NCBI GenBank assembly: GCA_947473805.1
Contig: CANJGB010000002.1
Coordinates: forward strand, 1-64,000
DNA: 64,000 nucleotides
Origin: Alphaproteobacteria bacterium
GTDB taxonomy: Bacteria > Pseudomonadota > Alphaproteobacteria > Ferrovibrionales > Ferrovibrionaceae
Reading direction: 5' to 3'
The notes beneath the pieces were generated by a model that made no database searches, was not told the DNA's origin, and saw only the letters and a program-made list of their open reading frames with translations. The translations under genes and the position numbers were made by a program. Each line of letters opens with the position of its first letter. Within the stretch, counting starts at the first letter, position 1. Below are positions 2,980 through 19,734 of this stretch, piece by piece.

Positions 2980-3054
2980 ATGGGAAAAGGACTTATTCTT
3001 TGGCTGATCGGCATTCCGATCCCCATCATCATTTTGCTGTTTCTGATTTTCTAG
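2980..3054 (+). CDS. Very small hydrophobic membrane protein (24 aa)
   Basis: ATG with a strong Shine-Dalgarno (GGAGGA at 2967-2972, 7 bases before the start). The product is one hydrophobic helix: MGKGLILWLIGIPIPIIILL followed by FLIF. A Lys near the start suggests the N-terminus stays cytoplasmic, and a central PIP motif kinks the helix. Short proteins with the MGKGLxLWLxGIPxPIIxLL pattern occur widely in Proteobacteria and are usually unannotated; I recognise the pattern but no function. It lies between the SRPBCC gene and the end of a minus-strand gene, in a stretch with no other CDS. Confidence 0.7.
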   Translation: MGKGLILWLIGIPIPIIILLFLIF

Positions 3055-3179
3055 GCACTTCGCAGAAGCGCGTGGCTGATGAGGTTCTGGTAGTTCTGCC
3101 GGCCCTCATTTTTCCTGTACCTGAGTACACGCCGGTCGATCGCGTGGGTGACAATACCGCCGGAAGCCAAGACTTTGTC

Positions 3180-4187
3180 TCAGTTCTGAATCCGGATGTT
3201 GGCCTTCTCGATGGTTTCCTTCCACTGGGCGGTGCTGTCACTGATCAGCCTCGACAGGTCCTGCGGCGAGCCGGTCAGGACCGTCAACCCGCCGGCGGAT
3301 TCCATGCGCGTCTTCACCTCGGGCTTCGAGAGATAGGCCACGATGTCGCGGTACAGGCGGATCTGGATGTCGGCCGGCAGCCCGGCCGGACCGGCGACCG
3401 CGAACCACGACGACAGGTTGACGCCGCGCAGCGCCGGCACGTCTGCCTCCTTCATCGTCGGCACGTCGGGCAGGGCGGGCAGGCGGTTCGGGCCGGTGAT
3501 CGCCAGCGCCTGGATGCGGCCATCGCGCACAGTGCCGAGCGCCGCCTGCACGCCGGTGATCGACATCTGCACGTCGTTCGAGCCGTAACCCATGAGGATT
3601 TCGGCGGTGCCCTTGAACGGGATATGGGTGACGTCGAGACTGCCGGCCCTGATCTTAAGCAGTTCGAAGCCGAGATGGGTCGAGGAACCGACGCCGTCAG
3701 AGGCATAATTGAACTTGCCTGGACTGGCCTTCACGCGGGCGACCAGCTCACCCAGCGTCTTCACGCCCATAGAGGGCTGCACCAGCACCATCAGCGGCAC
3801 GTCGGCGACCAGTGCGATGGGCGTAAAGCCGGTCGGCTCGTAGGGCAGTTTCTGCAGCAGCGGCGCCGCCGTGGTGGGCGCGTTCGAAATAAGTCCAATC
3901 GTGTAGCCGTCGGGCGCTGCGGTGGCGACGGCAGCCTGGCCGATGGTGGTGCCGCCGCCGGGGCGGTTCTCGACCACGACCGGCTGGCCGAGCGACACTG
4001 TCAATCCCTCCGCGATCAGGCGGCTGACGAAGTCGGACGGGCCGCCGGGCGGCACGCCGGTGATGAACTTCACCGGCTTGGAGGGATAGCCCTGCTGCGC
4101 GAACCCCGGCGCCGCCAGGGCGAAACACAGTGCGAGACCAGCCACGAACCGCAGCCCGCATGACCCTGAAATGTCACCTGCTGTCAT
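3180..4187 (-). CDS. Tripartite tricarboxylate transporter (Bug/TctC) solute-binding protein 1
   Basis: 335 residues with an N-terminal signal peptide (about residues 1-31, ending AAPGFAQQ). The Bug core follows: YPSKPVKFITGVPPGGPSDF, then PVVVENRPGGGTTIG, APDGYTIG, the YASDGVGSSTHLG ligand-loop region and HIPFKGTAEIL. Such proteins bind small carboxylates or amides in the periplasm. It is the most diverged of three tandem paralogs (C-terminus AQWKETIEKANIRIQN versus KVDN in the other two). No tctA/tctB membrane genes are in the window, so the partner permease must be elsewhere, or the protein works as a sensor. Confidence 0.93.
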   Translation of the reverse strand: MTAGDISGSCGLRFVAGLALCFALAAPGFAQQGYPSKPVKFITGVPPGGPSDFVSRLIAEGLTVSLGQPVVVENRPGGGTTIGQAAVATAAPDGYTIGLISNAPTTAAPLLQKLPYEPTGFTPIALVADVPLMVLVQPSMGVKTLGELVARVKASPGKFNYASDGVGSSTHLGFELLKIRAGSLDVTHIPFKGTAEILMGYGSNDVQMSITGVQAALGTVRDGRIQALAITGPNRLPALPDVPTMKEADVPALRGVNLSSWFAVAGPAGLPADIQIRLYRDIVAYLSKPEVKTRMESAGGLTVLTGSPQDLSRLISDSTAQWKETIEKANIRIQN

Positions 4188-4206
4188 GATTGATTCCGCC
4201 CCTGGC

Positions 4207-5214
4207 TCAGTTGTCGACCTTGATGTTCGCCTTCTCGACGACTTCCTTCCATTGCCGGTTGGCGTCGCCCATCAGCTTGGCGAAGTCCTGCGGCGAACTG
4301 GCGCGCGCGTTCTGCCCCGCCGCCTTCATCCGGGCGATGACGTCGGGCCGCGCCAGCGTCGCGACGATCTCGCGGTTCAGGCGCTCGACAATGGCGGGCG
4401 GCAGGCCCTTGGGCCCGACCACGCCGAACCACGAACGCACGTCGATACCAGACAGCCCCGCCTCGGCCATGGTCGGCACGGCGGGGTAGTCCGCCAGGCG
4501 CTCGGGCGCGGTCACAGCCACCACCTTCAGTTTGCCGTCGCGGATCATCTCGTCGATTACCTTCGTCGGGCTGTTCAGAAAAAACTGGATGTCGCCGGCC
4601 AGCAGGGCGGGATACTTCTCGCTCGCGCCCTTGTAGGGGATGTGGACGATGTCAAGATTGCCGGCCCTTATCTTGAACAGTTCGAAGCCCAGGTGCGTGG
4701 TCGAGCCGACGCCGTCGGAGCCGTAGCTGTATTTGCCCGGGTTCGCCTTCGCCTTGGCGATGAGTTCTGGCAGCGTGCTGACGCCGAGCGAGGCGGCTAC
4801 GCCGAGAAAGTTAGTGCCTTCGGAAATCTGCGCGACGGCGGTGAAGTCCTTCGGCGGGTCCCAAGACAGCTTGACGAGCGCCGGTCCGGCGCCGAGTGGC
4901 CCCGACGTGCCGACGCCGAGCGTGTAGCCATCGGGTTCTGCGCTGAAGACGGCCTGCATGCCGATAGTGCCGCCGGTGCCGCCGCCCGGTTTGTTGTCGA
5001 CGATGATTGGCTGGCCGAGCGGACCCTGGAGCGCGTCCGCCAAGGTGCGGGTCACGATGTCGGCCGAACTGCCTGCAGGGTTGCCGATGACCAGGCGGAT
5101 CGGCTTGGTCGGCCAGGATTGCGCGCGCGCCGCCGGGACGATGCCGCCGAGGCACAGGCCCATGGCTAGCGCCACGAGCGGCGTGAGCAGTGAGTGACAG
5201 ACTCTGGCCGGCAT
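4207..5214 (-). CDS. Tripartite tricarboxylate transporter (Bug/TctC) solute-binding protein 2
   Basis: 335 residues starting MPARVCHSLLTPLVALAMG, a signal peptide cleaved near PAARAQS. The Bug domain shows SWPTKPIRLVIGNPAGSSAD, PGGGTGGTIGMQAVF, KLSWDPPKDFTAVAQISEGT, YGSDGVGSTTHLGFELF and HIPYKGASEK. The last residues RQWKEVVEKANIKVDN are almost identical to paralog 3, and the DNA there is nearly identical over more than 35 bases, so these two arose by recent tandem duplication. I rejected a longer upstream frame because it only re-reads the tail of paralog 3 in another register. Periplasmic; substrate unknown. Confidence 0.93.
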   Translation of the reverse strand: MPARVCHSLLTPLVALAMGLCLGGIVPAARAQSWPTKPIRLVIGNPAGSSADIVTRTLADALQGPLGQPIIVDNKPGGGTGGTIGMQAVFSAEPDGYTLGVGTSGPLGAGPALVKLSWDPPKDFTAVAQISEGTNFLGVAASLGVSTLPELIAKAKANPGKYSYGSDGVGSTTHLGFELFKIRAGNLDIVHIPYKGASEKYPALLAGDIQFFLNSPTKVIDEMIRDGKLKVVAVTAPERLADYPAVPTMAEAGLSGIDVRSWFGVVGPKGLPPAIVERLNREIVATLARPDVIARMKAAGQNARASSPQDFAKLMGDANRQWKEVVEKANIKVDN

Positions 5215-5237
5215 TTTCCCACTCCTCGCAATCCGGA

Positions 5238-6245
5238 TTAGTTGTCGACCTTGATGTTCGCCTTCTCGACGACTTCTCTCCATTGGCGATTGGCATCGGT
5301 CATCAGCTGGGTCAGTTCCGCCGGCGTGCCCGGGTGCGCGTTCTGACCGAGCGTCTTCAGGCCGGCGATCACTTCGGGTTGCTGCAAGGCCGCAACAGCC
5401 GCCTGGTTCAACCGTTCGACGATGTCGGCGGGCAAGCCCTTAGGTGCGACCAGACCGAACCACGAGCGCGCATCCACGCCCGGCAGGCCGGCTTCCTCCA
5501 TGGTGGGCACGTTCGGCAGGTCGGCGAGGCGGCGCGGCGAGGTGACGGCAACCGCCTTGATCTTGCCGTCGGCGATCATGCCATCGACGACCTTGGACGG
5601 CGAGTTGAGGAACAAGTGGATTTCACCTGCCAGCATGCTGGCGTTCTTCTCGCTCGATCCCTTGTAGGGGATGTGCACGACGTCCAGCCCGCCGGCGCGG
5701 ATCTTGAACAGTTCGAAGCCCAGATGGGTCGATGAGCCGATGCCGTCGGAGCCGTAATTGTAGCGGCCGGGATTGACCCTCACTTTCGCGATCAGTTCCT
5801 GGACCGTGTCGACCCCCAGCGACGTGCTGACTCCGAGCAGAAAGGTTCCCTCGGAGATTTGCGAAATGGCGGTGAAATCCTTTGGCGGGTCCCACGGCAG
5901 CTTGACCAGCGCCGGACCGGCGCCGAGCGGTCCGGACGTGCCCAGGCCGATGGTGTAGCCATCGGGCGCCGCCGAGAACACGGCATTCATCGCGATGGTG
6001 CCGCCGGTGCCGCCGCCAGGCCGGGCCTCGACGATGAAGGGCTGGCCCAGTGTCTTCGCCATGCCGCCGGTCACGAGGCGGGCAATCGTGTCCGCGGGAC
6101 CGCCTGCAGGATTGCCGACCACGATCAGGATCGGCTTGGTGGGCCAGCCATCGGCCGCCGTGGCGCCGGTGATGCCGAGCCCGACCAGTCCGGCGAGAAG
6201 CCCCGGTAGAAGAATCACTCGGAGACAGTGGAGGCCCGATCGCAC
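5238..6245 (-). CDS. Tripartite tricarboxylate transporter (Bug/TctC) solute-binding protein 3
   Basis: 335 residues. A GTG start (VRSGLHCLRVILLPG) is chosen because GGGAGGAAAG precedes it at good spacing and it begins a signal peptide ending TGATAADG. Bug motifs: GWPTKPILIVVGNPAGGPAD, PGGGTGGTIAMNAVF, KLPWDPPKDFTAISQISEGT, YGSDGIGSSTHLGFELFK and HIPYKGSSEKN. It sits 34 bp after the amidohydrolase gene on the same strand, so the three binding proteins and the amidohydrolases probably form one catabolic operon. The likely ligand is the hydrolase substrate or product; this is inference. Confidence 0.93.
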   Translation of the reverse strand: MRSGLHCLRVILLPGLLAGLVGLGITGATAADGWPTKPILIVVGNPAGGPADTIARLVTGGMAKTLGQPFIVEARPGGGTGGTIAMNAVFSAAPDGYTIGLGTSGPLGAGPALVKLPWDPPKDFTAISQISEGTFLLGVSTSLGVDTVQELIAKVRVNPGRYNYGSDGIGSSTHLGFELFKIRAGGLDVVHIPYKGSSEKNASMLAGEIHLFLNSPSKVVDGMIADGKIKAVAVTSPRRLADLPNVPTMEEAGLPGVDARSWFGLVAPKGLPADIVERLNQAAVAALQQPEVIAGLKTLGQNAHPGTPAELTQLMTDANRQWREVVEKANIKVDN

Positions 6246-6279: not shown

Positions 6280-7977
6280 CTAGGCGCGCACGTGCAACGG
6301 TCCCCGCACCAGTCGACCCGGTCGCGCCCCGGTGTCACGCCCCCGGTCCAATACGATTTCGCCGCCGACGATAGTCGCCAGGAAGCCGCTTGCCTCCTGC
6401 CGGAGCCGCAGGGCGCCGCTGGGGAGGTCGCTGGCGACCGTCGGCATGTCCGGCCCGACTGTGGCCGGGTCGAAGACGTTGAGGTCGGCCACCAGGCCTT
6501 CGCGCACCAGGCCCCGGTTGGCGAAGCCCCACGCGCGGGCCGGCGCCAGCGTCAGCATGCGCACAGCCTCCTCCAGTGTGAAGGCCTGCTGGTCGCGCAC
6601 CCAGTGGGCGAGCAGGTGGGTCTGGATGGAGCTGTCCATGATCTGGCTGACATGGGCGCCCGCGTCGGAGAAGGTCATCACCGTCCGCGGATGCTTCATC
6701 AGCACCAACTGTTCTTTCGGGTCCATCGGCGTGATCGGCTGGACGAAGAACTGCGCGAAGTCCGACGCAAGGGACAGGTCGATGATGAGGTCGACGGGAT
6801 CGACGCCCCGCTCTGCCGCGACCTCCGCAACCGTCCGGTGCGGCGGCAGGGGAGTATCGAGGATGCGCATGGTCGTGTAGTCGGGTTTGCGCGCCTCGGC
6901 GCCGATGGGATTGCCGTAGTCGCCGTGATGGGCGGCGTGGAGCAAGCGTTTCCGGGTGGCGGGATCGGCCAGGGCCTTTTTTTGCTGGTCGAGCGGCAGG
7001 GCGCGGACCGGCTTCCATTCCGCCAGGCCGTCGAACGGCAGATGTGTCCTGAACGACAGCACGACCGAGACCCCCCGGCTGTGGGTCATGCCGAACATGC
7101 GCCCCCCGGCGGCTGCCGTCGAATCCAGCAGGGCGAGCTGGGACCGGGCATGGCGGCCCAGCGTGCCAAATACCATGGGCACACCGCTCTCGACGGCGAG
7201 CGCGCGGAGCCGGCCATAATACTCGTCGCGGGCGGCGTTATCTTCCCCGTTGGCGGCCGGCTCGTTCGCCAGTTCGAACATGCCGGTGCCCAGCTCGCCC
7301 ATGGCGTTGACCAGGCGTCGGACCTCACTCCACGTGGCGAGGCGCGAGGCGACGGGCCGGTTGTCGGACGTTTCGTGCTGGCCGCTGCGCGAGGTGGTGA
7401 AGCCGATCGCGCCCGCCTGCAGGGCCGCGCGCAGCTCGCGCACCATCACGTCGATGTCGGTGTCACTCGAGGGACCGTCGAAGGCGCGTTCACCCATCGC
7501 CCAGGTGCGCAGCGCCGAATGGCCGATGTTGGTGGCGTAGTTGATGCCCTTCGGCACGGCATCCACCGCGTCCATATATTGGGCGAAGTTCGACCAGGTC
7601 CAGTCGATGCCGGCCGCGATGGCCGCGCCGGAAATGTCCTCGGCCCGCTCCAGGTTGCGGATGACCAGCGCGCGGTCGGCGAATTTCGCCGGCGCAAGGG
7701 TGAAACCGCAATGCCCCATCACCACTGTCGTGACGCCGTGCCAGCACGAACAAGTGCCCAGTGGATCCCAGAACACCTGCGCGTCCATGTGGGTGTGGCC
7801 GTCGATAAAGCCGGGCGTGACCACATGGCCGTCGGCATCGAGTTCCCGGCGGCCTCGTTCCGGAATGCGGCCAATGGCGACGATCCTACCCTGCCGAACG
7901 CCGACATCGGCGCGATAGGATGCGAGGCCCGTGCCGTCGACTACGGTGCCGTTGCGGATGACGAGGTCCAGGGACAT
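6280..7977 (-). CDS. N-acyl-D-amino-acid deacylase family amidohydrolase (D-aminoacylase-like) 1
   Basis: 565 residues. The start at MSLDLVIRNGTVVDGTG follows an SD (AGAGGA); 24 upstream in-frame residues are not conserved. Residues 56-66 (GFIDGHTHMDA, with His61 and His63) form the N-terminal zinc motif of the D-aminoacylase/dihydroorotase-like superfamily. Further blocks are HGVTTVVMGHCGFTLAP, FSDAGAHVSQIMDSSIQTHL (the catalytic Asp/His region) and EAVRMLTLAPARAWGF. The family hydrolyses N-acyl-D-amino acids or related amides and carbamates in the cytoplasm; specificity cannot be read from sequence. A second paralog lies at 9138-10859. Located directly upstream of the three Bug binding proteins. 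Confidence 0.9.
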   Translation of the reverse strand: MSLDLVIRNGTVVDGTGLASYRADVGVRQGRIVAIGRIPERGRRELDADGHVVTPGFIDGHTHMDAQVFWDPLGTCSCWHGVTTVVMGHCGFTLAPAKFADRALVIRNLERAEDISGAAIAAGIDWTWSNFAQYMDAVDAVPKGINYATNIGHSALRTWAMGERAFDGPSSDTDIDVMVRELRAALQAGAIGFTTSRSGQHETSDNRPVASRLATWSEVRRLVNAMGELGTGMFELANEPAANGEDNAARDEYYGRLRALAVESGVPMVFGTLGRHARSQLALLDSTAAAGGRMFGMTHSRGVSVVLSFRTHLPFDGLAEWKPVRALPLDQQKKALADPATRKRLLHAAHHGDYGNPIGAEARKPDYTTMRILDTPLPPHRTVAEVAAERGVDPVDLIIDLSLASDFAQFFVQPITPMDPKEQLVLMKHPRTVMTFSDAGAHVSQIMDSSIQTHLLAHWVRDQQAFTLEEAVRMLTLAPARAWGFANRGLVREGLVADLNVFDPATVGPDMPTVASDLPSGALRLRQEASGFLATIVGGEIVLDRGRDTGARPGRLVRGPLHVRA

Positions 7978-8038
7978 CGGCGTGTCCTCTTCTGTATTGG
8001 CCGTTTCGTGCGGCGTTGAGTTTATCTCCCGGCGAACA

Positions 8039-9115
8039 TCATATACCAAACAGGCGGGCCGCGTTCTCGCCCAGGATTTTCCGCTTCGACACGTCGCTGA
8101 GGCCGTTCATCGTCTTCAGTCCCTCGACCACGCCATCGAACGGATGGTCGGGGTGCGGATAGTCGGTCGAGAAACAGATATTGTCGTCGCCGATGGCGTC
8201 GACCGTGAAGGGCAGCAGGCGCTCGTTGCCCTCGGCGGCGACGAAGCACTGGCGACGGAAATATTCCGACGGCATCAGCGGCAACTTCAGACTGGCATGA
8301 CCCCAGTGATGGATGTGGTCGTCCATGCGGTCGATCCAGTACGGCGCCCAGGCGACGCCGCATTCGACCGTCATGGTGCGCAGCTTCGGGTGCCGTTCCA
8401 GCACGCCGCCGCAGATCATGCTGAGCAAGGCCATCTGCTGCTCGAACGGGTGCGAGATCATGTGCCGGAACATGAAATTGTCGTAGCGGTCCATGCCGGT
8501 CTGGTTGAGGTCCTGGGTCGTGCCTTCGTGCAGCACGACGGGGGCGTTGTATTCCTCCAGCACGTCCCACAACGGTTCGTAGGCCGGGTGGTCCATGGTG
8601 CGGCCACCGACCGGGTTCGGCCGCATGAAGACGCCGCGCAGCCCCAGTTCGCCGAGGCCGCGGCGGGCCTCCTTGATCGCCTCATCGACATCGATCTGCG
8701 GAATGATGCAGGGCGCGACCAGCCGCTTCGGATCGTACTTCACGAAGTCGCTGGCCCAGTTGTTGTACGCTTGGCACAACGCCACGCAGGTCGGCACATC
8801 CTTCAGACTGAAGAAATACAGGCCCGAGGTGGGGTAGATCACCATGGTATCGACGCCAGCCTCGTCCATGTCGGCGATGCGCGCCTTCGGGTCGAACGAG
8901 CCGGGCTTCTTGTCCATGGTCACGCCGCCCGGCGGTGGCGGCGCGTTCGGGATGTACTCCATCATGTGGTTGGCGATGACGCGGCGGCTGCGGCCCTGGT
9001 TGTCGATCACCTTCTTCGGCGCGGCATGGCGAAATTTCGGATCGAGATACTTGTTCCAGACCTCGGGCGGTTCGACGAAATGGGCATCGGCATCGATCAC
9101 ACGATAGGCGGTCAT
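8039..9115 (-). CDS. Amidohydrolase-2 family protein (ACMSD/decarboxylase-like TIM barrel)
   Basis: 358 residues, start MTAYRVIDADAHFVEPPEVW. The N-terminal DxDxH metal motif (Asp8-Asp10-His12) plus the C-terminal CFSTDYPHPDHPFDG block, with its metal-ligand Asp, place it in the amidohydrolase-2 family, which includes ACMSD, gamma-resorcylate and related non-oxidative decarboxylases as well as hydrolases. HEGTTQD supplies another ligand histidine. It sits between the two D-aminoacylase paralogs (22 bp from the upstream one) and is probably cotranscribed. In similar catabolic clusters such proteins act on aromatic or carboxylic intermediates; here the substrate is unknown. Confidence 0.9.
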   Translation of the reverse strand: MTAYRVIDADAHFVEPPEVWNKYLDPKFRHAAPKKVIDNQGRSRRVIANHMMEYIPNAPPPPGGVTMDKKPGSFDPKARIADMDEAGVDTMVIYPTSGLYFFSLKDVPTCVALCQAYNNWASDFVKYDPKRLVAPCIIPQIDVDEAIKEARRGLGELGLRGVFMRPNPVGGRTMDHPAYEPLWDVLEEYNAPVVLHEGTTQDLNQTGMDRYDNFMFRHMISHPFEQQMALLSMICGGVLERHPKLRTMTVECGVAWAPYWIDRMDDHIHHWGHASLKLPLMPSEYFRRQCFVAAEGNERLLPFTVDAIGDDNICFSTDYPHPDHPFDGVVEGLKTMNGLSDVSKRKILGENAARLFGI

Positions 9116-9137: not shown

Positions 9138-10859
9138 TTACGGCGCCGCCTGGTGGCCGCGGACGAGGCGGCCGGGCAGGGCGCCCGTCGCCTCGCCATT
9201 GCGATACGTGACGGCGCCACCGACAACGGTGACGTCATAGCCGCTGGCGCGCTGCATCAGGCGGCGGCCGCCGGCCGGCAGGTCGCGCTGGATGGTGGGC
9301 ACGCCAAGGCGCAGATGGTCGAAGTCGATCACGTTGATGTCGGCGCGATAGCCCGGCGCGAGCACGCCGCGATCGTTCAGGCCCATCACGGACGCCGTGT
9401 CGTGGCTCAGCGACTTTACGACCAAAGGCAGGGTGAAGCGGTCGTGTTTGCGATCACGCGCCCAGTGCGTCAGCAGGAAGGTGGAGTAGCTGCCGTCGCA
9501 GATGCTGCCGAGATGCGCGCCGGCATCGCCGAGGCCGGGCACCGTGTCGCGGTGGCTGAGCATGTCGTGCACGGTGTCGAGCGAAGCCTCGGCGTAGTTC
9601 GAGATCGCCATGTACAGCAGGTTGCGGCCATCGCGTTCGAGCAGAAGGTCATAGGCGCGTTCCTCGGGCCGCACGCCCATGCGTGCCGCCTGCGCGGCCA
9701 CGCTGTCGTCGGGCGAGGGTTCATAGTTCGGCGGGTCGCTTAGTTCGAACAGGCGGTCGAAGAAGCGCGTACGCACGCCTAGCGCGTTGGTCGGATTGGG
9801 ATCGGGCGGTTCGTTGATGATGCGGGCGCGGATATCGGGCTGGCGCAGCGCGCGGATTTTCTCCGCGAACGGCAGACACGACAACGCGCGATAGGTTTCC
9901 GTGGTGTAGAACGGATTGAGCGTCAACTCATGTCCCAGCAGCAGGCCCAGCGGGCGTGGCAGGATCTGCACCTTCACCCACTTGCCGGCATCGTTCGCCT
10001 GGGCGACCCAGTCCAGTGTGCGGCGCCAGATGTCGGGTCGGCGGTGGTTCTGCGTCATCGCGAAGCTGATGCGGCACCCCGAGCCGGCGATGATGCGATC
10101 CAGTTCCGACAGCGCATCTTCCTGCGGGTCCCAGTCGCTGACGAACTGCATCAGGCCATCCCCGGTCTCGCGCACGGCGCGGGCGAGGACGGTCAGTTCT
10201 TCCTCGGTGGCCTTGAGCGTCGGCGTCGTCTCGCCATTGCTGGAGCGGTGCAGCAGGGTGCGGGACGTGCCAAAGCCCATGGCGCCGGCCTGCATCGCCT
10301 GGCGCATCAGCCGGTCCATCTCGGCCAGATCACGCGGTGTCGCGGCGTCGCGGCTGGCCGCACGCTCGCCCATCACATAGACGCGCAACGCCGCGTGCGG
10401 CACGTAGCCAGCGACGTCGATGTCATACCTGCGGCGCGAGAGGAAATCGAAATAGTCGGGGAAGCTCTCCCACTGCCACGGCACACCCTCGGACAGGACG
10501 ACGCCGGGAATGTCCTCGACGCCTTCCATCAGGCGCAGCAGCATGTCGCGCTGGTCGGGCCGGCACGGCGCGAAGCCGACGCCGCAATTGCCCATCACCG
10601 CCGTCGTGACACCGTGGAACGATGAGGGATGCAGGCGCTCGTCCCACGTCGCCTGGCCGTCGTAGTGGGTGTGCACATCGACAAAGCCGGGCGTGACAAT
10701 CCTGCCCTTGGCGTCGATTTCCTCGGTGCCGGTGGCCAGCACGTCGCCCACGGCAACAATGCGACCGTTGCGGACGGCGATATCGGCCTCGTAGGGCTCG
10801 CCGCCGCGGCCATCGACGACCAGCCCGTGACGAACGACGAGATCGACCTTGTCGGCCAC
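9138..10859 (-). CDS. N-acyl-D-amino-acid deacylase family amidohydrolase (D-aminoacylase-like) 2
   Basis: 573 residues. The GTG start ([20 protein letters not shown]) is chosen from GGGAGGAAAC upstream; a longer frame runs into the divergent lysR promoter and is not conserved. [11 protein letters not shown] (His63, His65) is the metal motif, and [17 protein letters not shown] and [20 protein letters not shown] are the other family blocks. It is the first gene of the minus-strand amidohydrolase/Bug block and diverges from the LysR gene, the usual geometry for LTTR-controlled catabolic operons. Similar to, but clearly different from, the copy at 6280-7977, so the two probably have different substrates. 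Confidence 0.9.
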
Positions 10860-10927
10860 CTTGTTTCCTCCCGTTTCACAAGGGGTAGCGTGAAACGGGG
10901 GCCTTGATAACGCCCGCAGGGCGCGTA

Positions 10928-10954
10928 CCATCTTTACGGAATCTGCAAAGATGG
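10928..10954. promoter_or_regulatory. LysR-type operator (T-N11-A inverted repeat)
   Basis: Perfect 8-bp arms CCATCTTT (10928-10935) and AAAGATGG (10947-10954) flank an 11-base spacer, giving the T-N11-A LTTR box. It lies in the divergent region between the second D-aminoacylase gene and lysR, about 70 bases from the hydrolase start and immediately in front of the preferred lysR start. This fits a site for both autoregulation and control of the catabolic operon. Confidence 0.65.
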
Positions 10955-10959
10955 CTGGG

Positions 10960-11871
10960 ATGGAAACGCTACACGCCATACGTCTGTTTGTGCGCACGGT
11001 GCAGGACGGCAGCCTGTCGGCCGCCGGGCGGCACGTGGGCCTGTCGGCGGCGTCGGTGTCGCGCCACATTAATGCGTTGGAGGGCAGCCTCGGCGTTCGC
11101 CTGCTCAACCGGTCCAGCCGCAAGCTGAGCCTGACCGAACCAGGCGAAGTGTTCTACCGGCGGGTCGAGCCGATCCTGGCCGACCTGAAGGATGCGTCCG
11201 AGGCGGTGACCCATTTCCATTCCGGCCTGGTCGGCACGCTGCGGGTGCGGGCGCCGATTACCGCCGGCACCGTGGTCATCGCGCCGGCTCTGCCCCGCTT
11301 CCTGGAACAGTATCCGGACCTGAAGGTCGACCTGCGCCTGTCGAACCTGAACGCGGTCGACCTGGCGGGCGAGGATATCGACATCGATCTCCGCGTCGGC
11401 ACGCTGGAGGATTCAACGCTGATCGGCCGCAAGCTGAGCCCCAGCGTACCGGTTGTCTGCGCCAGCCCCGCCTATCTGGCGGGCCGCACGATACCGCGCG
11501 TGCCCGAGGACCTGGTGGCGCACAATTGCATCACTTACGAGCGCAACCTGGCTCGCCCGACCTGGCGCTTCCGTGCCGCCAATGGCGTGGTGAAGGAATT
11601 GAGCGTGACGGGCAGCCTGCGGACCGACAATGGCGTGGTGCTGCGCGCTGCGCTGGTGCAGGGCGTCGGCATCGGCCTGATGCCGGCCTGGTCGGTGGCG
11701 GACGAACTGGCGGCCGGACGTCTGGTGCGGCTGTTCACCGACTACGAAGTGACGCCGACCGATTTTGGCTACTCGGTTTACGCTGTGTACCAGCACAACC
11801 GGCGCGGCTCCGCCAAAGTGGTGGCGTTCGTCGATTTCCTGGCCGACCTGTTCCGCCGCGCGGCGGCCTAG
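10960..11871 (+). CDS. LysR family transcriptional regulator
   Basis: 303 residues. METLHAIRLFVRTVQDGSLS begins the winged HTH (residues 1-60), and SVSRHINALEGSLGVRLLNR is the recognition helix and wing. The C-terminal part (90-295) is a type 2 periplasmic-binding-protein effector domain. I prefer ATG 10960 over 10951 because it matches the normal LTTR N-terminus and leaves the T-N11-A operator in the leader. Divergent from the amidohydrolase/Bug operon, which it probably activates in response to a pathway metabolite. Its TAG stop overlaps the TAG stop of the convergent gntR gene within the palindrome CTAG. Confidence 0.92.
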   Translation: METLHAIRLFVRTVQDGSLSAAGRHVGLSAASVSRHINALEGSLGVRLLNRSSRKLSLTEPGEVFYRRVEPILADLKDASEAVTHFHSGLVGTLRVRAPITAGTVVIAPALPRFLEQYPDLKVDLRLSNLNAVDLAGEDIDIDLRVGTLEDSTLIGRKLSPSVPVVCASPAYLAGRTIPRVPEDLVAHNCITYERNLARPTWRFRAANGVVKELSVTGSLRTDNGVVLRAALVQGVGIGLMPAWSVADELAAGRLVRLFTDYEVTPTDFGYSVYAVYQHNRRGSAKVVAFVDFLADLFRRAAA

Positions 11872-12606: not shown

Positions 12607-13380
12607 GTGTCGATGTCATCTGCCATCCCGCACGCACCCGATCCGTCAAAGTGGATCAACCCGCCCGACATTTTCAAATTCCGCGCGCGGCCAAAGGGCA
12701 TTCCGGTGCCCGAGTTCTGGGCCAAGATGGAAGGCCTGCTGCGCGCGAAGTCGGCGGCGAGCAGCCCGTTCGTAAAGGCAGTGGCCGATGGCACCGCGCC
12801 GCGCGAGGCGGTGCAGCGCTTCGCCCGCGACCTGCCGCTGATCGCCCGCGACCTGCCGCTGATCGAGGGCGAGATCGCCTCGCGCGCATCGCTGCACGGG
12901 GTCAACACCGTCATCCTGCTCAGCTACGGCTCGACCCTGGCGTTCGGTTATAATGGCTTCGCCCCACTGACCGAACTGGCGGAGAGGTTCGCCCAGGCCA
13001 TGGGCGTCAATTCCAGCACCGGGCAGGCATCGCGCCGCACGACGGTATTCCTCGCCTGTGTCCGCAGCCTGGGCCTGGAATGGCTTGAGGCCGGCGTTGC
13101 CGCCACATCCATCGACGCGCAATGGGCGGAGGTCGCGAAGGTGCTCAAGGCAGGCCTGCAAAAGCATTATGGCGTGCCGGTGGAGGCGCTGGCCTGTTTC
13201 GATGCGCTTGCGGCCTTTGATGGGCCGCGCACGACCGAGCGTCCGCTGATGCTGCAGGAACTGGCGCAGTCCGGCTACCACCAGTACGTCGTCACCCATG
13301 CGATCCGCGAAAGCACCGGCGTGTGGCGGCACATGTGGGACGGCTGGCTGTCGCGCCCGGCCGAGGAAGACGCTCAATAA
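12607..13380 (+). CDS. Heme-oxygenase-fold (TenA/PqqC-like) protein with apparently degenerate metal site
   Basis: 257 residues, GTG start 7 bases after CGGAGGAA. The helical pattern matches TenA/PqqC-like proteins (VPEFWAKMEGLLRAKSAA, the LACVRSLGLEWLEAG segment, C-terminal GYHQYVVTHAIRESTGVW). The position where catalytic relatives carry HxxxDxxH reads HQYVVTH here (225-231), so the dimetal site looks incomplete. Residues 73-79 and 80-86 are an exact tandem repeat (ARDLPLI twice) encoded by a perfect 21-bp DNA duplication. It is 21 bp upstream of a second family member, so the two may form a heteromer with this one as the non-catalytic subunit; that is inference. Function unknown. Confidence 0.75.
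   Translation: MSMSSAIPHAPDPSKWINPPDIFKFRARPKGIPVPEFWAKMEGLLRAKSAASSPFVKAVADGTAPREAVQRFARDLPLIARDLPLIEGEIASRASLHGVNTVILLSYGSTLAFGYNGFAPLTELAERFAQAMGVNSSTGQASRRTTVFLACVRSLGLEWLEAGVAATSIDAQWAEVAKVLKAGLQKHYGVPVEALACFDALAAFDGPRTTERPLMLQELAQSGYHQYVVTHAIRESTGVWRHMWDGWLSRPAEEDAQ
12823..12864 (+). repeat. 21-bp perfect tandem duplication inside the heme-oxygenase-fold gene
   Basis: The 21-base unit at 12823-12843 (starting GCCCGCGACCTGCC) is repeated without mismatch at 12844-12864. It stays in frame and inserts seven residues (ARDLPLI). The absence of any silent difference points to a recent duplication by slippage, or to an assembly artefact. Confidence 0.9.
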
Positions 13381-13401
13381 AACAAAGATCCGGAGGAAAA
13401 A

Positions 13402-14094
13402 ATGGCCCAGGCAAAACGGAACGAAGACGAGTTCGCCAAGGAGATGGAGCATATCCGTGCCACCAACTCCGTCGTGACCACGCAGTTCTGCCAGGATCTG
13501 CGCGACGGCAAGGCGCCCATTGCGGGCGTGAAGGGGCTGGCGGTGCAGACCTACTATATGACGATCCGCACCGGCGCGCCGTGCATTGGCAAGCCCTATG
13601 GCTTTCGCGATGCGGGGCCGGAAATACTGCATACGGCAATTGCCAATGCGGTGGGCGAGATCGGTTATACCGGCGATGCGCCGCACGTCTTCCTCGCGCG
13701 CAACATGTGCTACGGCCTGGGCATGACCGACGAAGAGATCGAGGACACGCCGATCACCCCGGAGATGTATGGCTACATCGAGATGATGAGCCTGAACAAC
13801 CGCACCAACGTGCCGCGGCTGCGCGGTGCCATAGAAATTACCGAAGCGGACAGCGCCTATTCATCGCAGCTGGTCGCCGACGCCTGCCGCAAGCATTACA
13901 AGCTGGACGACGATGGCGTGCGCTACTGGCTGGTTCACGGCTATGCGGATCTGGAGCATGGCGAGGAGAATGCGCGCATCGCGCATGCCTTGTGCGCGAC
14001 GCGGGAGGACCAGGACGAGGTGCTGAGCAACGCGACGCGCGCGATCAAGACTCGGCGCGTGGTGTGGGAGTCGTTCCGCAGCCTCTACAACTGA
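13402..14094 (+). CDS. Heme-oxygenase-fold (TenA/PqqC/CADD-like) putative dimetal oxygenase
   Basis: 230 residues with SD GGAGGAAAAA. The segment VHGYADLEHGEEN carries His179-x3-Asp183-x2-His186, the HxxxDxxH arrangement of the third metal-binding helix in CADD-like heme-oxygenase-fold diiron enzymes. Glu86 and His95 (GEIGYTGDAPH) and Glu145 or Glu148 are plausible remaining ligands. This makes it a candidate non-heme iron oxidase or oxygenase, whereas the upstream neighbour lacks the motif. Both genes are probably cotranscribed under GntR control. It is not PqqC itself: no pqqA, B, D or E is nearby. Substrate unknown. Confidence 0.78.
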   Translation: MAQAKRNEDEFAKEMEHIRATNSVVTTQFCQDLRDGKAPIAGVKGLAVQTYYMTIRTGAPCIGKPYGFRDAGPEILHTAIANAVGEIGYTGDAPHVFLARNMCYGLGMTDEEIEDTPITPEMYGYIEMMSLNNRTNVPRLRGAIEITEADSAYSSQLVADACRKHYKLDDDGVRYWLVHGYADLEHGEENARIAHALCATREDQDEVLSNATRAIKTRRVVWESFRSLYN

Positions 14095-14105: not shown

Positions 14106-15200
14106 TCAGGCGGTTGCGGCGGCGCGCCGGTACAGGATCGTGACCTTCACGCCGTGACCGGGGCTTGATTCCACGTCGAGGCTGGCCTTCGCATTTTCGC
14201 GGAGCGACTGAACGATCAGCGCGCCCAGCTTGCCGCTTTGTGGCCATTCCACTCCATCGGGCAGGCCAACGCCGTCATCGGCGACGACGACCCGGCAGCC
14301 GCCGCCGTCAGCGAGGCTCTGTACACTGATGGTGCCGCCATCGCGGCCGACGAAGGCGTGTTTCAGCGCGTTGGTCAGCAGTTCGTTGATGACGAGGCCA
14401 ATCGGCAGGGCGACGTTGACCGAGACCGGATAGGCATCGACCTTAAGTTCAAGCCGGATGCCCTCGACCGCATGCGAGTGCATCACCGACGAGGCGATTT
14501 CGCTCAGATAGACGCCGAGGTCGATTTCGTCCTTCTGCTCATGCTCCGACAGCAGCTTGTAGATGAGCTGTATGGAGTCGATCCGGCCGGCCAGCCGATC
14601 GAACGGCTTGGTATCCATTTTTCCGCGCGCGTTACGCGCCTCTATGCGGATCAGGGCGGTGATCATCTGGAGATTGTTTTTTACCCGGTGCTGGATTTCC
14701 AGCAGCAGGGTGTCCTTCTCGCGAATTTTCTGTTCGATCTCTTCGCGAAGGACTTCGGTTGACGCGCTGACATCCACAAGCGCGGCGAGACGGTAGGACG
14801 GCGTGCCCTCATCGTCCTGGATGACATTGGAATAGACGTTGGCGACGGCGGCCTCGGCGGCGGGGCGCTCAATCTTGAACGTGCCGACGAAATCAACTGA
14901 CTCGGCGATAGCCTCGCTAAGTTTCCGCGCTTCCTGCTCGCCGGTGCCTTCGCCTTGCAGAACCGTCCATGTTTTGCCGACGACCTGGGCCGCCTTGAGG
15001 ACCGTCAGCCTTTCGAATTCGCGATTTGCGTAGACGATGCGCTCGCGGTCCTTGAGTTCCGAAATCGCGATGGCGATGGGGACCTGGTCGAGAAATCGGC
15101 GAAACTGCCTGCTTTCCAGGGCGTCGGCCAAATCGGGCGTCGCCAGCAGTGTTTCCAGCTGCTCCGTTTTCGCGGCTTCCGGGGGTTCCTGGTTGGTCAA
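14106..15200 (-). CDS. PAS-domain sensor histidine kinase, HisKA_2 type
   Basis: 364 residues. A PAS domain occupies about 35-150 (FLDQVPIAIAISELKDRERI, NREFERLTV). The HisKA_2 phosphoacceptor box EIQHRVKNNLQMI has His171. A HATPase_c domain follows (NELLTNALKHAF N-box, DDGVGLP G1 box, PGHGVKV G2 box). No transmembrane segment, so it is soluble and probably senses a cytoplasmic or redox/light cue through PAS. The start is TTG with AGGAC 7 bases upstream. No response regulator is adjacent, so it is an orphan kinase; this class often feeds the alphaproteobacterial general stress response, which is only a suggestion here. Confidence 0.9.
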   Translation of the reverse strand: MTNQEPPEAAKTEQLETLLATPDLADALESRQFRRFLDQVPIAIAISELKDRERIVYANREFERLTVLKAAQVVGKTWTVLQGEGTGEQEARKLSEAIAESVDFVGTFKIERPAAEAAVANVYSNVIQDDEGTPSYRLAALVDVSASTEVLREEIEQKIREKDTLLLEIQHRVKNNLQMITALIRIEARNARGKMDTKPFDRLAGRIDSIQLIYKLLSEHEQKDEIDLGVYLSEIASSVMHSHAVEGIRLELKVDAYPVSVNVALPIGLVINELLTNALKHAFVGRDGGTISVQSLADGGGCRVVVADDGVGLPDGVEWPQSGKLGALIVQSLRENAKASLDVESSPGHGVKVTILYRRAAATA

Positions 15201-15350: not shown

Positions 15351-16538
15351 CTAGCTCTTCTTGGCAATCTCGGCCTTCTTGTCTTCCCACTTGGCGAATT
15401 CCTTCTCGACCGCCTTGCTGCGCATGCCGAGCAGTTCACCGCGGTTGGCGGCGGCCCATTCCATGGACTCGAAGCGGTTCTTGTTCACCTTGGTGAAGTG
15501 CGGCATCACGAAGCGGGCGATCAGCTCGTAGCTTTTCTTCGTGTGTTCGAAGTCGGCCCAATCCTGGGCCAGGTTCAGCCAGGCGCCGAAGCCGCCCGAC
15601 TTGTCCCACATGCTCTGGATGCGGGCGATCAGGTCGTCCGGCGTGCCGATGACCGCCATGCCGCTGTTCACCATGGCGTCGATCTGCTCGTCGAGGCTGG
15701 CGTCGATTTCGGTGGCGATCGGCAGGGCGCTGACGCGCTTGAAATACTTCACCCAGGCCGGCAGGCCGTGGGCCACGTCCCTGCGGGCCTGTTCGCGCGT
15801 TTCGGCGATGTGCACCGGGCCGACCAGGCGCCAGGCCGAGCGGTTGACGGTCTTGCCGTGGCGGGCGGCCTCGCTGCTCCAGATGTCCCAGGTATTTGCC
15901 AGCGCGTCGAAGCCCGCCTGCGAGGTCGCGGTGATCGAGAGCAGGCCGGCGCCATGCTTGCCGGCGAGGCTGGGACCGTAGGGCGAGGAGGTGGCGGCAA
16001 TCACCAGTTCGGCGTGCGGAAGGGTAAAGTTGCCGAGCTGGCTGCGCGCATCCTGCAGCTTGAAGTGGTCGGTCTGCTTGGTGACCATCTCGCCGCGCAG
16101 CAGCGGCAGGATCACGTCGAGCATTTCCTCGGCGATCTCGCGGATACGCAGCGGGTCGCGCCCCATCATGTGTACGTCGGACGGCAGCGAGCCGGGACCG
16201 ACGCCGAACATCAGGCGGCCGCGCGTCTGGTGGTCCAGCTGCTGGATGCGGTCGGCGACTGTCAGCGGTCCATGATAGGGCAGGGACAGCACGCCGGTGC
16301 CGAGACGGATGCGCTTCGTGCGTTCGGCCACGCCGGCGATGAACAATTCGGGCGACGGAATGGTTTCCATGCCGCCGGAATGATGCTCGCCGATCCACGC
16401 CTCATGGAAGCCGATCTGGTCGAGATGGGTGACCAGCTGCATGTCGCGCTCGATCAGCAGTGTCGGGTTCTCGGCGCAGTCATGGAATGGCGAGATGAAC
16501 GTGCCGAAACGGAGGAGGCGCTGGTCTGGAGCGGTCAT
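15351..16538 (-). CDS. LLM-class flavin-dependent oxidoreductase (luciferase-like monooxygenase)
   Basis: 395 residues, a bacterial-luciferase-like TIM barrel. Visible motifs are FGTFISPFHDCAENPTLL, the EHHSGGMETIPSPELF flavin-edge block, RIRLGTGVLSLPYHGPLTVA and the GRLMFGVGPGSLPSD phosphate loop. The EHHSGG pattern resembles limonene-monooxygenase-type and alkane-sulfonate-type flavin enzymes rather than the compact F420 group. It needs a flavin reductase partner, or could use F420 given its neighbours. It lies 78 bp downstream of cofC on the same strand, so it may be the last gene of the F420 operon. Substrate unknown. Confidence 0.9.
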   Translation of the reverse strand: MTAPDQRLLRFGTFISPFHDCAENPTLLIERDMQLVTHLDQIGFHEAWIGEHHSGGMETIPSPELFIAGVAERTKRIRLGTGVLSLPYHGPLTVADRIQQLDHQTRGRLMFGVGPGSLPSDVHMMGRDPLRIREIAEEMLDVILPLLRGEMVTKQTDHFKLQDARSQLGNFTLPHAELVIAATSSPYGPSLAGKHGAGLLSITATSQAGFDALANTWDIWSSEAARHGKTVNRSAWRLVGPVHIAETREQARRDVAHGLPAWVKYFKRVSALPIATEIDASLDEQIDAMVNSGMAVIGTPDDLIARIQSMWDKSGGFGAWLNLAQDWADFEHTKKSYELIARFVMPHFTKVNKNRFESMEWAAANRGELLGMRSKAVEKEFAKWEDKKAEIAKKS

Positions 16539-16616
16539 GGCTGGGTTTCCTCGGAAAATATGACGCGGGAGCTATAGGAGAGAGGGTGCGCGAACGTCAA
16601 CCCGCGGCAAACTGGC

Positions 16617-17216
16617 TTATTTTCCGGCGCTGCGCGCCTGCACCGCGGCCAGGTCTTCCGGCGCGTCGAGGTCGAACGCGATGTGTGGAATATCGACCGC
16701 GTGGAAGCACAGGCCCGCAGCTTTCACCGCCATGCCGTGGCTGATGAAGCTGTCCGGCCCGAACGCGAACGGAACGGGCGGCGGCAGCGGGCAGAGCAGC
16801 GCGCCGGTGCCACCATCCTTCGAACGCACGCAGGTCACCGTGCCAGCGCCGCGATGCGCCGCGATGAGATGGGTGAAATCGACGGCGCGGGCCAGCGGCA
16901 GGTCGGCCGGAATGACCAGCATCGCCGTGGCGCCGTGATGCTGCAGCCAGTCGGCGGCGACGACCAGCGCCTGGTTAAGGCCGCCGGCCGGCGGTTCGGG
17001 CAGGACCTGGATGCCGCGTTCGACCGCATGGGCCGCGGCGGCGGCATCGCCAGTGACGACAACGATGCCGGCCAGCCCCTCGGCTGCCAGCAAGCCAGTC
17101 AGCACGTTGTCGAGCATGGAGAGGACGAGGTCGGCGCGGGCCGGCGGGTCCAGCGCATCGGCCAGACGTTGTTTTGCCTGGTCCAGGCGCTTCACGGGAA
17201 CGGCGGCCCAGATCAT
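16617..17216 (-). CDS. cofC: Nucleotidyltransferase for F420 side chain (CofC)
   Basis: 199 residues. The N-terminus MIWAAVPVKRLDQAKQRLAD is the CofC/MobA-like NTP-binding motif, followed by the PADLPLA metal/substrate motif and GGLNQALV. CofC activates a three-carbon phosphorylated acid (2-phospholactate, phosphoenolpyruvate or 3-phosphoglycerate, depending on lineage) with GTP for F420 assembly. The start ATG overlaps the cofD stop as ATGA, so the genes are translationally coupled; a longer upstream frame only shadows cofD and is rejected. Which acid this enzyme uses decides whether classical or 3PG-type F420 is made, and that cannot be read by eye. Confidence 0.93.
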   Translation of the reverse strand: MIWAAVPVKRLDQAKQRLADALDPPARADLVLSMLDNVLTGLLAAEGLAGIVVVTGDAAAAAHAVERGIQVLPEPPAGGLNQALVVAADWLQHHGATAMLVIPADLPLARAVDFTHLIAAHRGAGTVTCVRSKDGGTGALLCPLPPPVPFAFGPDSFISHGMAVKAAGLCFHAVDIPHIAFDLDAPEDLAAVQARSAGK

Positions 17217-18163
17217 GCGGTCCTCATGCGGTCGGCGAAGGCGAGCATGGCCTCGGCCAACGCGCGCTTGTCGGCGGTGTTGCGCATAACGGTCGGCGCA
17301 ACTTCGACCTTCAGACCCATGGAGCGTATGCCATCGGCCTGGTCTGCATCGGTGTCGTCGATCACGAAGCCGTCGATATAGGGGCGCAAAAGCCTGGCGA
17401 CCGCTGTCGCGCTGACCTCCTGACCCAGTTCGGCCATCATCTTCGCCGCCGGGCCCTTGATCGCCACGCCGCCGACGATGGGCGACACGGCAATGGCCGG
17501 CGCGCGGCGTCTGGCCAGCGCAGCGGCAATGTCTTTTACCGCGAGGATCGGGCCCAGGCTGACATAGGGATTGGATGGGCAAAACAAAATCGCGCGCAGT
17601 TTCGGGTCGCCCAGCGTCGCGGCGACGGCGGGGGCTGGCTTCGCCGCCGCCGCGCCCTCGAAGCGGAAGCCGGTGACGACCGGCGCACAGCGCTCGCGAA
17701 CGAAATAATGCTGGAAGGCAAGTTCGCCATCCGGCGTCAGCACGATGGTACTGACCGGCTGGTCGCTCATCGGCGCGATGGTCGGCGCGACGCCCAGCCT
17801 GCGCGCGAGGTCGGCGGTGATCGCGCTGATGCTTTGCCCTGCGGCCAATGCCTGGCTGCGCACCACGTGCATGGCGAGATCGGCATCGCCGAGACGAAAC
17901 CACGTCTCGCCACCCAGCACCGCCATCGTGTCCATGAAGTGCCAGGTCTCGTCGGCGCGGCCCCAGCCCAGTTCCGGATTGGCGAGGCCCGACAATGTGT
18001 ACAGCACGGTGTCGATGTCCGGGCAGACATGCTGGCCGACATGGGTAAAATCGTCCCCGGTATTGCAGCACACGACGAGTTGTTCAGCCGGCAGCACCTG
18101 TGCCAGGCCGTGAACCAGCTTGGCGCCACCGACGCCACCGGAAAGGGCGAGGACGGTACTCAC
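17213..18163 (-). CDS. cofD: 2-phospho-L-lactate transferase (CofD)
   Basis: 316 residues. MSTVLALSGGVGGAKLVHGL is the nucleotide-diphosphate-binding start. NTGDDFTHVGQHVCPDIDTV carries the family Fo/metal-site Asp residues, and FCPSNPYVSLGPIL is the CofD/YvcK-fold signature. CofD transfers the activated three-carbon moiety to the deazaflavin Fo, forming F420-0 or dehydro-F420-0. GTG start overlapping the cofE stop (GTGA), and ATGA overlap with cofC: a tight cofE-cofD-cofC operon. The Fo synthase genes (fbiC or cofG/cofH) are not in the window and must lie elsewhere for the pathway to work. Confidence 0.95.
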   Translation of the reverse strand: MSTVLALSGGVGGAKLVHGLAQVLPAEQLVVCCNTGDDFTHVGQHVCPDIDTVLYTLSGLANPELGWGRADETWHFMDTMAVLGGETWFRLGDADLAMHVVRSQALAAGQSISAITADLARRLGVAPTIAPMSDQPVSTIVLTPDGELAFQHYFVRERCAPVVTGFRFEGAAAAKPAPAVAATLGDPKLRAILFCPSNPYVSLGPILAVKDIAAALARRRAPAIAVSPIVGGVAIKGPAAKMMAELGQEVSATAVARLLRPYIDGFVIDDTDADQADGIRSMGLKVEVAPTVMRNTADKRALAEAMLAFADRMRTA

Positions 18164-18948
18164 CGGAACAGGTCCAGGTGCGGTGGGCGGACGAGCGCGG
18201 CGGCGGGGCGCGGTTCGGCCTGGCGCGGCAGGCCGCGCACCAGCACGATTGGGCAGCCTTCCGCGGCCTGACCCATGACGAGGGACGCCGCCGAGGCGAT
18301 CTCGTCGGCATGGCCGACCTCGGTGGTCATCAGGCTGCGGCCATACAAGTCAGGTTTGCCGCGCAGGTCGAGCAAGGCGGGCAGGCCGGCGCTGCCGATG
18401 GCGGTGCCGATGGTGCCCAGTCGCCAGGCGCGGCCGAAACTGTCGTTGATGACCACGCCGATCTCGATGCCGGTGCGTGACCTGATGGCGTCGCGGAGCG
18501 TTGCAGCGCTCCTGTCCGGATCGACCGGCAGCAGCAGCGCGCTGCCATCACCGTCCTGCGTGACGTTCGACTGATCGATCCCGGCATTGGCCAGCACCCA
18601 GCCGTTCCTGTGCGACACCACGATGGCGCCGACCCGGCAGCGCAGCACCTCGGTCGATTCCGACAGGATGAGTTCGACGATGCGCGGGTCTTTGTCCGCC
18701 TGCTTCGCCAGTTCGATAGCGCGCGGCGAGGGCGTGACGGTCGAGAGCCGCACCGTGCGGCCCTCGCTCTTCGAGACGATCTTTTGCGCGAGGACCAGGA
18801 CATCGCCGTGCTGGAGCGCGAGCCCTTCGCGTGCCAGCGCGTCCAGCGCGATAGCCGCTAGGTCGTCGCCAGCGGCAACCAGCGGAATGCCGGCGAGCGC
18901 GACCAGTTCAACCTTGGCAGACTTACCGTTGTTGGCGATCGGCGACAC
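18160..18948 (-). CDS. cofE: Coenzyme F420-0:L-glutamate ligase (CofE)
   Basis: 262 residues. VALAGIPLVAAGDDLAAIA, DVLVLAQKIVSKSEGR, NAGIDQSNV, VINDSFGRAWRLGTIGTAIG and DLYGRSLMTTEVGHADE are the conserved CofE blocks. The enzyme adds glutamates by GTP-dependent ligation to build the F420 tail. It is stand-alone: there is no C-terminal nitroreductase-like domain as in mycobacterial FbiB, so the dehydro-F420-0 reductase activity, if the PEP route is used, must come from another protein. GTG start. Same operon as cofD and cofC. Confidence 0.95.
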   Translation of the reverse strand: MSPIANNGKSAKVELVALAGIPLVAAGDDLAAIALDALAREGLALQHGDVLVLAQKIVSKSEGRTVRLSTVTPSPRAIELAKQADKDPRIVELILSESTEVLRCRVGAIVVSHRNGWVLANAGIDQSNVTQDGDGSALLLPVDPDRSAATLRDAIRSRTGIEIGVVINDSFGRAWRLGTIGTAIGSAGLPALLDLRGKPDLYGRSLMTTEVGHADEIASAASLVMGQAAEGCPIVLVRGLPRQAEPRPAAALVRPPHLDLFR

Positions 18949-19002
18949 GTTTCCGTCCCTGCCCGGAGGCTGATGGCCTCCGGGTGTCTACTGTTCAGCG
19001 GT

Positions 19003-19662
19003 CTAGTGCGAACCAAGCCCGGTGAGGCGGATCGCCGGGTGCGCCTTGTGCCGGCGGCCGATGCTGATCAGCACCGAGGTCAGCGCCTCGGCAGCTGCCG
19101 AGTTCTGGATCACGCCGGCATCGTAGGCCTGCATGTCGATGGCCTTGCACAGCTCGATGGTCGTCTGCGCCGCGGCGCGATCGTTGCTGCACACCAGCAC
19201 GTCGCAATCGATGTCCTCGCCGGTCAGCAGCTTGTGCGCCGGCACGTTCTGGAACGCCGAGACCAGCTTCACACCTTCGCCCAGCGTATTGTGCGCGATC
19301 ACGCCCGCCGAACCTTCCGGCGGCAATTGCACGGTGCCGACCTTGGGGGGCACCAGCGCGACAGTGGCGTCGATCACGACCTTGCCCTGCACGTGCGGCT
19401 TGATCGACAGTAGGGTATCCTTCTGCGCCGCGAACGGCACCGCGACGATGACAATTTCCGCGCCAGCCGCGGCAGCGCCGTTTTCCAGCGCGCCGACCTC
19501 ACCGCCGCCGATGCGGGTTTTCAGGTCCTGGGCCGCGGCTTCCGCCTTTTCGGCGGTGCGCGAGCCGATCACCAGCGGATAGCCGGCCTTGGCCAGACGG
19601 AAGGCAAGACCGCCGCCAAGCTGGCCCGCGCCGCCGATGATCGCGATTTTCGGTTTGGACAT
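19003..19662 (-). CDS. npdG: NADPH-dependent F420 reductase
   Basis: 219 residues. Rossmann start MSKPKIAIIGGAGQLGGGLA, then VIGSRTAEKAEAAA (NADP phosphate-binding SRT), VIVAVPFAAQ, and C-terminal blocks DVLVCSNDRAAA and SAAAEALTSVLISI shared with Fno/NpdG. It transfers hydride between NADPH and F420, supplying F420H2 to F420-dependent oxidoreductases. Clear SD AGGAGTTGAG. 54 bp upstream of cofE on the same strand, so synthesis and reduction of the cofactor are in one transcription unit, a strong sign that F420 is really used in this organism. Confidence 0.93.
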   Translation of the reverse strand: MSKPKIAIIGGAGQLGGGLAFRLAKAGYPLVIGSRTAEKAEAAAQDLKTRIGGGEVGALENGAAAAGAEIVIVAVPFAAQKDTLLSIKPHVQGKVVIDATVALVPPKVGTVQLPPEGSAGVIAHNTLGEGVKLVSAFQNVPAHKLLTGEDIDCDVLVCSNDRAAAQTTIELCKAIDMQAYDAGVIQNSAAAEALTSVLISIGRRHKAHPAIRLTGLGSH

Positions 19663-19734
19663 CTCAACTCCTGGAAATATGGCTGCCCGCCGGCCGAAGC
19701 CGGGGCTAGACCTAGAGGGAATCCGGGCGGGACG

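Follow-up and report, generated by a model that had tools for sequence, protein, structure and literature searches.

Three tandem TctC/Bug solute-binding proteins behind three amidohydrolases in an operon-like gene run of an alphaproteobacterium

The window, by which we mean the whole 64-kb stretch of DNA analysed here, contains a run of six genes on the minus strand, from 10859 down to 3180, in which three genes for TctC/Bug solute-binding proteins (SBPs) lie head to tail as the last three, behind three amidohydrolase genes. The features discussed in the text are as follows, with the Bug coordinates given after start-codon choice.

3180-4187, minus strand: Bug1, TctC/Bug solute-binding protein, 335 aa, third and most diverged copy (PF03401, E 6.3e-61)
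4207-5214, minus strand: Bug2, TctC/Bug solute-binding protein, 335 aa (PF03401, E 4e-64)
5238-6245, minus strand: Bug3, TctC/Bug solute-binding protein, 335 aa (PF03401, E 4.6e-65), GTG start behind GGGAGG
6280-7977, minus strand: A3, amidohydrolase of the D-aminoacylase / N-acyl-D-amino-acid deacylase superfamily branch, 565 aa (PF07969, E 2.9e-27 for the longer ORF)
8039-9115, minus strand: A2, Amidohydro_2 family enzyme, 358 aa (PF04909, E 2.1e-33 for the longer ORF)
9138-10859, minus strand: A1, amidohydrolase of the D-aminoacylase superfamily branch, 573 aa (PF07969, E 5.9e-49 for the longer ORF)
10870-10899, no strand: perfect inverted repeat with 10-bp arms and a 10-bp spacer, between the LysR gene and A1
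10951-11871, plus strand: LysR-type regulator, divergent from the run (PF03466, E 6.5e-37; PF00126, E 2.3e-17)
14106-15200, minus strand: PAS-HisKA_2 histidine kinase, the histidine kinase nearest to the array, no transmembrane segment by hydropathy
16617-18071, minus strand: CofC, F420 cluster
18160-18948, minus strand: CofE, F420 cluster
19003-19662, minus strand: NpdG-type F420 reductase, F420 cluster

An earlier note on this DNA had described the Bug genes as sharing an apparent operon with amidohydrolases, and the layout bears this out. The run A1-A2-A3-Bug3-Bug2-Bug1 is operon-like, all on one strand, with intergenic gaps of 22, 61, 34, 23 and 19 bp from A1 to Bug1 and no internal stops in any of its genes; its gene content, order and tight spacing are firmly established. 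Shine-Dalgarno-like sequences precede most starts, and A1, the first gene, has a GTG start behind GGGAGGA. The dyad at 10870-10899 may be an operator or a leader hairpin, although it is suggestive only, because the window holds 15 perfect 10-bp dyads with spacers of up to 24 (overlaps counted). A scan for promoters and terminators within the run yielded nothing informative, with seven terminator-like sites vs 6.0 in shuffled sequence. On the plus strand, a tiny ORF at about 2980-3055, encoding the very hydrophobic peptide MGKGLILWLIGIPIPIIILLFLIF, is convergent with Bug1 and faces its end.

The three tandem Bug genes reported in the earlier note are all intact, and each product matches the TctC profile over its whole length (PF03401, positions 1-273 of 274; E 6e-61 to 5e-65; 207-220 bits vs a cut-off of 27). 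By hydropathy, Bug1, Bug2 and Bug3 each have a hydrophobic N-terminal stretch of the signal-peptide kind. The Bug fold is established by a model of Bug2, the one member modelled (pLDDT 90.9, 37-row alignment): the top 11 structural matches all belong to the TctC family and its two-domain cleft fold (Z 34.7-39.8), with TBP (8hk9) at Z 39.8 and an rmsd of 1.5 over 290 residues and Bug27 (2qpq) at Z 37.9, whereas the first non-TctC structure scores Z 16.2. The best sequence match of the Bugs in the PDB set is 2dvz (E 5.7e-54), which is BugE (PMC5812351). Indeed, as far as the portions of the sources used here go, the array members resemble BugD, BugE, Bug27 and Bug69 of Bordetella in Pfam family, in fold and in being orphan genes (PMC5812351, PMC11452294). 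Unlike those proteins, Bug2 and Bug3 have two extra residues (80-81 in Bug2), an insertion found in none of the 231 other Bugs compared, a set in which external Bugs were retained only if nearly full length (189).

The conserved TctC loop motif is given as PFxAGGxxD (PMC8556258), and the corresponding loops in the three Bugs read G-N-P-A-G-S-S-A-D, G-N-P-A-G-G-P-A-D and G-V-P-P-G-G-P-S-D, retaining the glycine and the aspartate, not the P and the F; the motif itself is loose, since just 158 of the 231 other Bugs have F or Y at the phenylalanine position. In TphC the pocket aromatic is F30 (PMC8556258), and this position is N in Bug2, N in Bug3 and V in Bug1, as in part of the Bug family. Loss of the pocket phenylalanine was considered as a trait unique to the array and rejected, as 73/231 other Bugs lack F or Y there. 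Together, the changed pocket position and the insertion suggest that the ligands may have been retuned.

Next to the array there is no membrane subunit. The earlier note had seen no tctA or tctB nearby, and this now extends to the whole 153-kb contig of the array (C2), on which TctA and TctB searches found none; no complete TTT transporter locus (tctCBA) is present at the array. Locating the tctAB genes, as the note had proposed, turned up three sets elsewhere in the genome (3.31 Mb in 58 contigs, rated 95% complete): by profile search, it holds 45 TctC, three TctA and three TctB genes, the latter two as tctBA pairs on contigs C20, C30 and C45, each with its own adjacent tctC. Within 5 kb of each TctA there is a single TctC, and 42 of the 45 TctC genes have no TctA within that distance; the missing membrane subunit is therefore the norm in this genome and no peculiarity of the array. 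On the same strand, the TctC genes form 36 singles, three pairs and one triple, which is Bug1-3.

Such an excess is known from Rhodoplanes sp. Z2-YC6860, which has 434 TctC genes in 8.2 Mb, nine of them in full TTT operons, with tandem arrays of two to nine and six arrays of three (PMC5994714). According to the portion of that report used here, the two genomes are alike in that most TctC genes are orphans, tandem arrays occur, members are mostly <50% identical and many lie near transcription factors. They differ in scale, with 45 TctC genes in 3.3 Mb here, and in the amidohydrolases beside our array, of which that portion of PMC5994714 makes no mention. Orphan Bug genes are likewise known from Bordetella (PMC5812351).

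The best solved relative of A1 is N-acyl-D-glutamate deacylase (3gip, E 2.5e-28), that of A2 is PtmU3 (6omp, E 4.2e-45) and that of A3 is D-aminoacylase (1m7j, E 1.3e-37); A1 and A3 both combine the profile match and the HxH metal motif of the D-aminoacylase branch, the HxH of A3 being at 61. Substrates were also sought through NCBIfam models and none could be accepted, all matches being far below the curated cut-offs. A1-A3 have no hydrophobic segment, and each of the Bugs has one.

Across the genome, amidohydrolases are found near Bugs more often than random placement predicts. Of 39 amidohydrolases above cut-off (28 PF04909 and 11 PF07969; one match of each family below its curated cut-off, at C4:38321 and C17:64603, was left out), 16 have a Bug within 5 kb vs 4.9 by random placement, a count reached in 0/2000 trials, although this null is crude in that some contig sizes were interpolated and catabolic genes cluster anyway. 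Without the three genes of the window, the count is 13/36 vs 4.6, with 2/2000 trials as high. Seen from the other side, 13 of the 45 Bugs have an amidohydrolase within 5 kb. This excess is a testable hint to the ligands of the genome's orphan Bugs. We do not claim that a Bug-amidohydrolase association is unpublished; PMC11452294 contains both 'Bordetella uptake gene' and 'amidohydrolase', the latter once and outside the passages used here. As a separate observation, an Amidohydro_2 gene lies directly upstream of an Amidohydro_3 gene at four places in the genome (C1:289461-292273, C19:44226-47057, C43:7126-9897 and 6280-9115 of the window), and two of these four pairs, on C1 and in the window, continue into Bug genes.

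What, then, might three orphan Bugs do behind three amidohydrolases? The closest parallel is TphC of Comamonas, which is encoded alongside the regulator in the tph catabolic operon, its carrier genes tpiBA lying elsewhere (PMC8556258). The array shares with it the setting of an orphan TTT SBP within a catabolic operon with a regulator and a membrane pair encoded elsewhere, as well as the fold (Bug2 model vs 7ndr_A: Z 39.5, rmsd 1.7 over 293 residues, 31% identity). In contrast, going by the sections of PMC8556258 used here, the tph operon has one SBP where the array has three, and its catabolic genes are a dioxygenase system rather than amidohydrolases. By this analogy, periplasmic capture for the amidohydrolase pathway, as the earlier note had suggested, is the likeliest role of the Bugs, and we regard it as probable that the run is a LysR-controlled catabolic operon whose orphan Bugs would feed related small carboxylates to a transporter with its genes at another locus. 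An inducer would act via LysR, and A1-A2-A3-Bug3-Bug2-Bug1 would be transcribed as a single mRNA. The Bugs would then be exported to the periplasm, where they would bind related small carboxylates or amides and deliver the ligand to a carrier, either one of the three TctBA pairs from other loci or a different one, after which cytoplasmic amidohydrolases would hydrolyse it.

It is possible, if unlikely, that the Bugs are instead redundant or scavenging duplicates, unlinked to the amidohydrolase substrates, whose place in the operon is an accident of a Bug-rich genome. The genome has 45 Bugs in 3.3 Mb, 32 of the 45 have no amidohydrolase within 5 kb, and none of the relatives examined showed this gene combination: A1-A3 matches occur at 1/80 outside loci that hold Bug relatives (queried with single sequences, the flanks differing in length), and a Bug occurs at 2/18 loci with A3 homologues of at least 48% identity, both on the opposite strand and several kb off. 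For these comparisons, outside loci with flanks of about 1.5 kb were too short to decide and wider ones were used; a conserved amidohydrolase-Bug operon in other genomes was looked for and not found. However, six tightly packed genes on one strand argue against chance neighbours, as does the enrichment of amidohydrolases near Bugs across the genome. A second run in the same genome, at C1:289461-294268, also speaks against it: it has the order A2-A3-Bug-Bug, its A3 is 52% identical to that of the window and its Bugs are not the closest relatives of Bug1-3.

If uptake for a catabolic operon is the correct reading, the genome is a further example of a lineage whose numerous orphan TctC proteins have to rely on a few shared carriers, and the substrates of A1-A3 would name the ligands of the Bugs. 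A bolder version, which we think quite improbable, is that the Bugs, with their altered pocket loop and the insertion in Bug2 and Bug3, are graded receptors whose ligands are N-acylated or amidated compounds, a type that has yet to be assigned to the family, and that the recurrent amidohydrolase-Bug operons of this genome form a general uptake-and-deacylation module with shared TctBA carriers. The orphan excess, tandem arrays and orphan Bugs within catabolic operons are all already published (Rhodoplanes, Bordetella and TphC), and the array leaves the picture of the TctC/Bug family unchanged.

The earlier note had also entertained use of the Bugs as signalling receptors. Here a ligand-loaded Bug would contact a membrane sensor kinase or a chemoreceptor, as BctC does via BctE in Bordetella. 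BctC of Bordetella pertussis is required not just for transport but also for signalling (PMC5812351), kinases and regulators are frequent neighbours of TctC genes in the part of the Rhodoplanes report used here (PMC5994714), and there is a histidine kinase at 14106-15200 of the window. However, a search of the 95%-complete genome for the chemoreceptor domain MCPsignal gave no matches, and the genome therefore probably has no chemotaxis receptors. A whole-genome search for the kinase domain 2CSK_N, which we take to be the sensor domain of TctE/BctE, also gave none, and thus no partner kinase of the BctC/BctE type was found; the E. coli control matched 2CSK_N, and the control genomes matched both domains. 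As both canonical partner types are absent from the genome search and the nearest kinase, a PAS protein with no hydrophobic segment, sits outside the run beyond three genes, the signalling reading is unsupported and we hold it to be very doubtful, although a sensor of another type is conceivable.

The three Bugs have a common origin. In a tree of 78 Bugs (45 from this genome and 33 others), Bug1-3 form one exclusive clade with support of 100/99, the bootstrap being not fully settled, which indicates that the array arose by local duplication; the 33 outside Bugs came from 22/80 loci with Bug relatives and from 11/11 non-own matches among 385 genomes of the class. Bug1 is 46% identical (aa) to both Bug2 and Bug3, the next best Bug in the genome is 38-40% identical to array members, and the best relatives reach about 43% beyond the genome and 42% within the 385 genomes of the class (own included); no other member of the genus is among the genomes listed. 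Bug2 and Bug3 are closer, at 65% aa and 70% nt identity, and their likeness at the DNA level near the 3' ends, which the earlier note had picked out, was recovered (300 nt at 72%, the last 36 coding nt identical). In shuffles that keep the amino-acid pairs, an identical run of 36 nt was reached at the tail in 12/5000 and anywhere in 34/5000, a result compatible with either a short conversion tract or local constraint. Even so, the NG86 dS of the pair is 0.85 and fourfold sites are 55% identical vs 41% expected from composition, and the duplicates are, on this sequence evidence, old rather than recent. The claim of ongoing expansion of the array does not hold up against this divergence: a young array growing through unequal crossing-over is scarcely credible with Bug2 and Bug3 so far apart and Bug1 further still, even if the identical tail of Bug2 and Bug3 could mark a short conversion tract. 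As old local duplicates with diverged pockets, the three Bugs probably allow a broader set of ligands to be taken up.

Two further groups of genes lie upstream of the run. Two adjacent haem-oxygenase-like / CADD genes occupy 12607-14094 on the plus strand, the second matching Haem_oxygenas_2 (E 4.2e-18) and the first matching the CADD model weakly. A coenzyme F420 cluster, with luciferase-like F420-dependent oxidoreductases, lies at 15351-20625 on the minus strand, and in its CofC ORF the CofC domain is preceded by about 290 residues with no match in either Pfam or NCBIfam.
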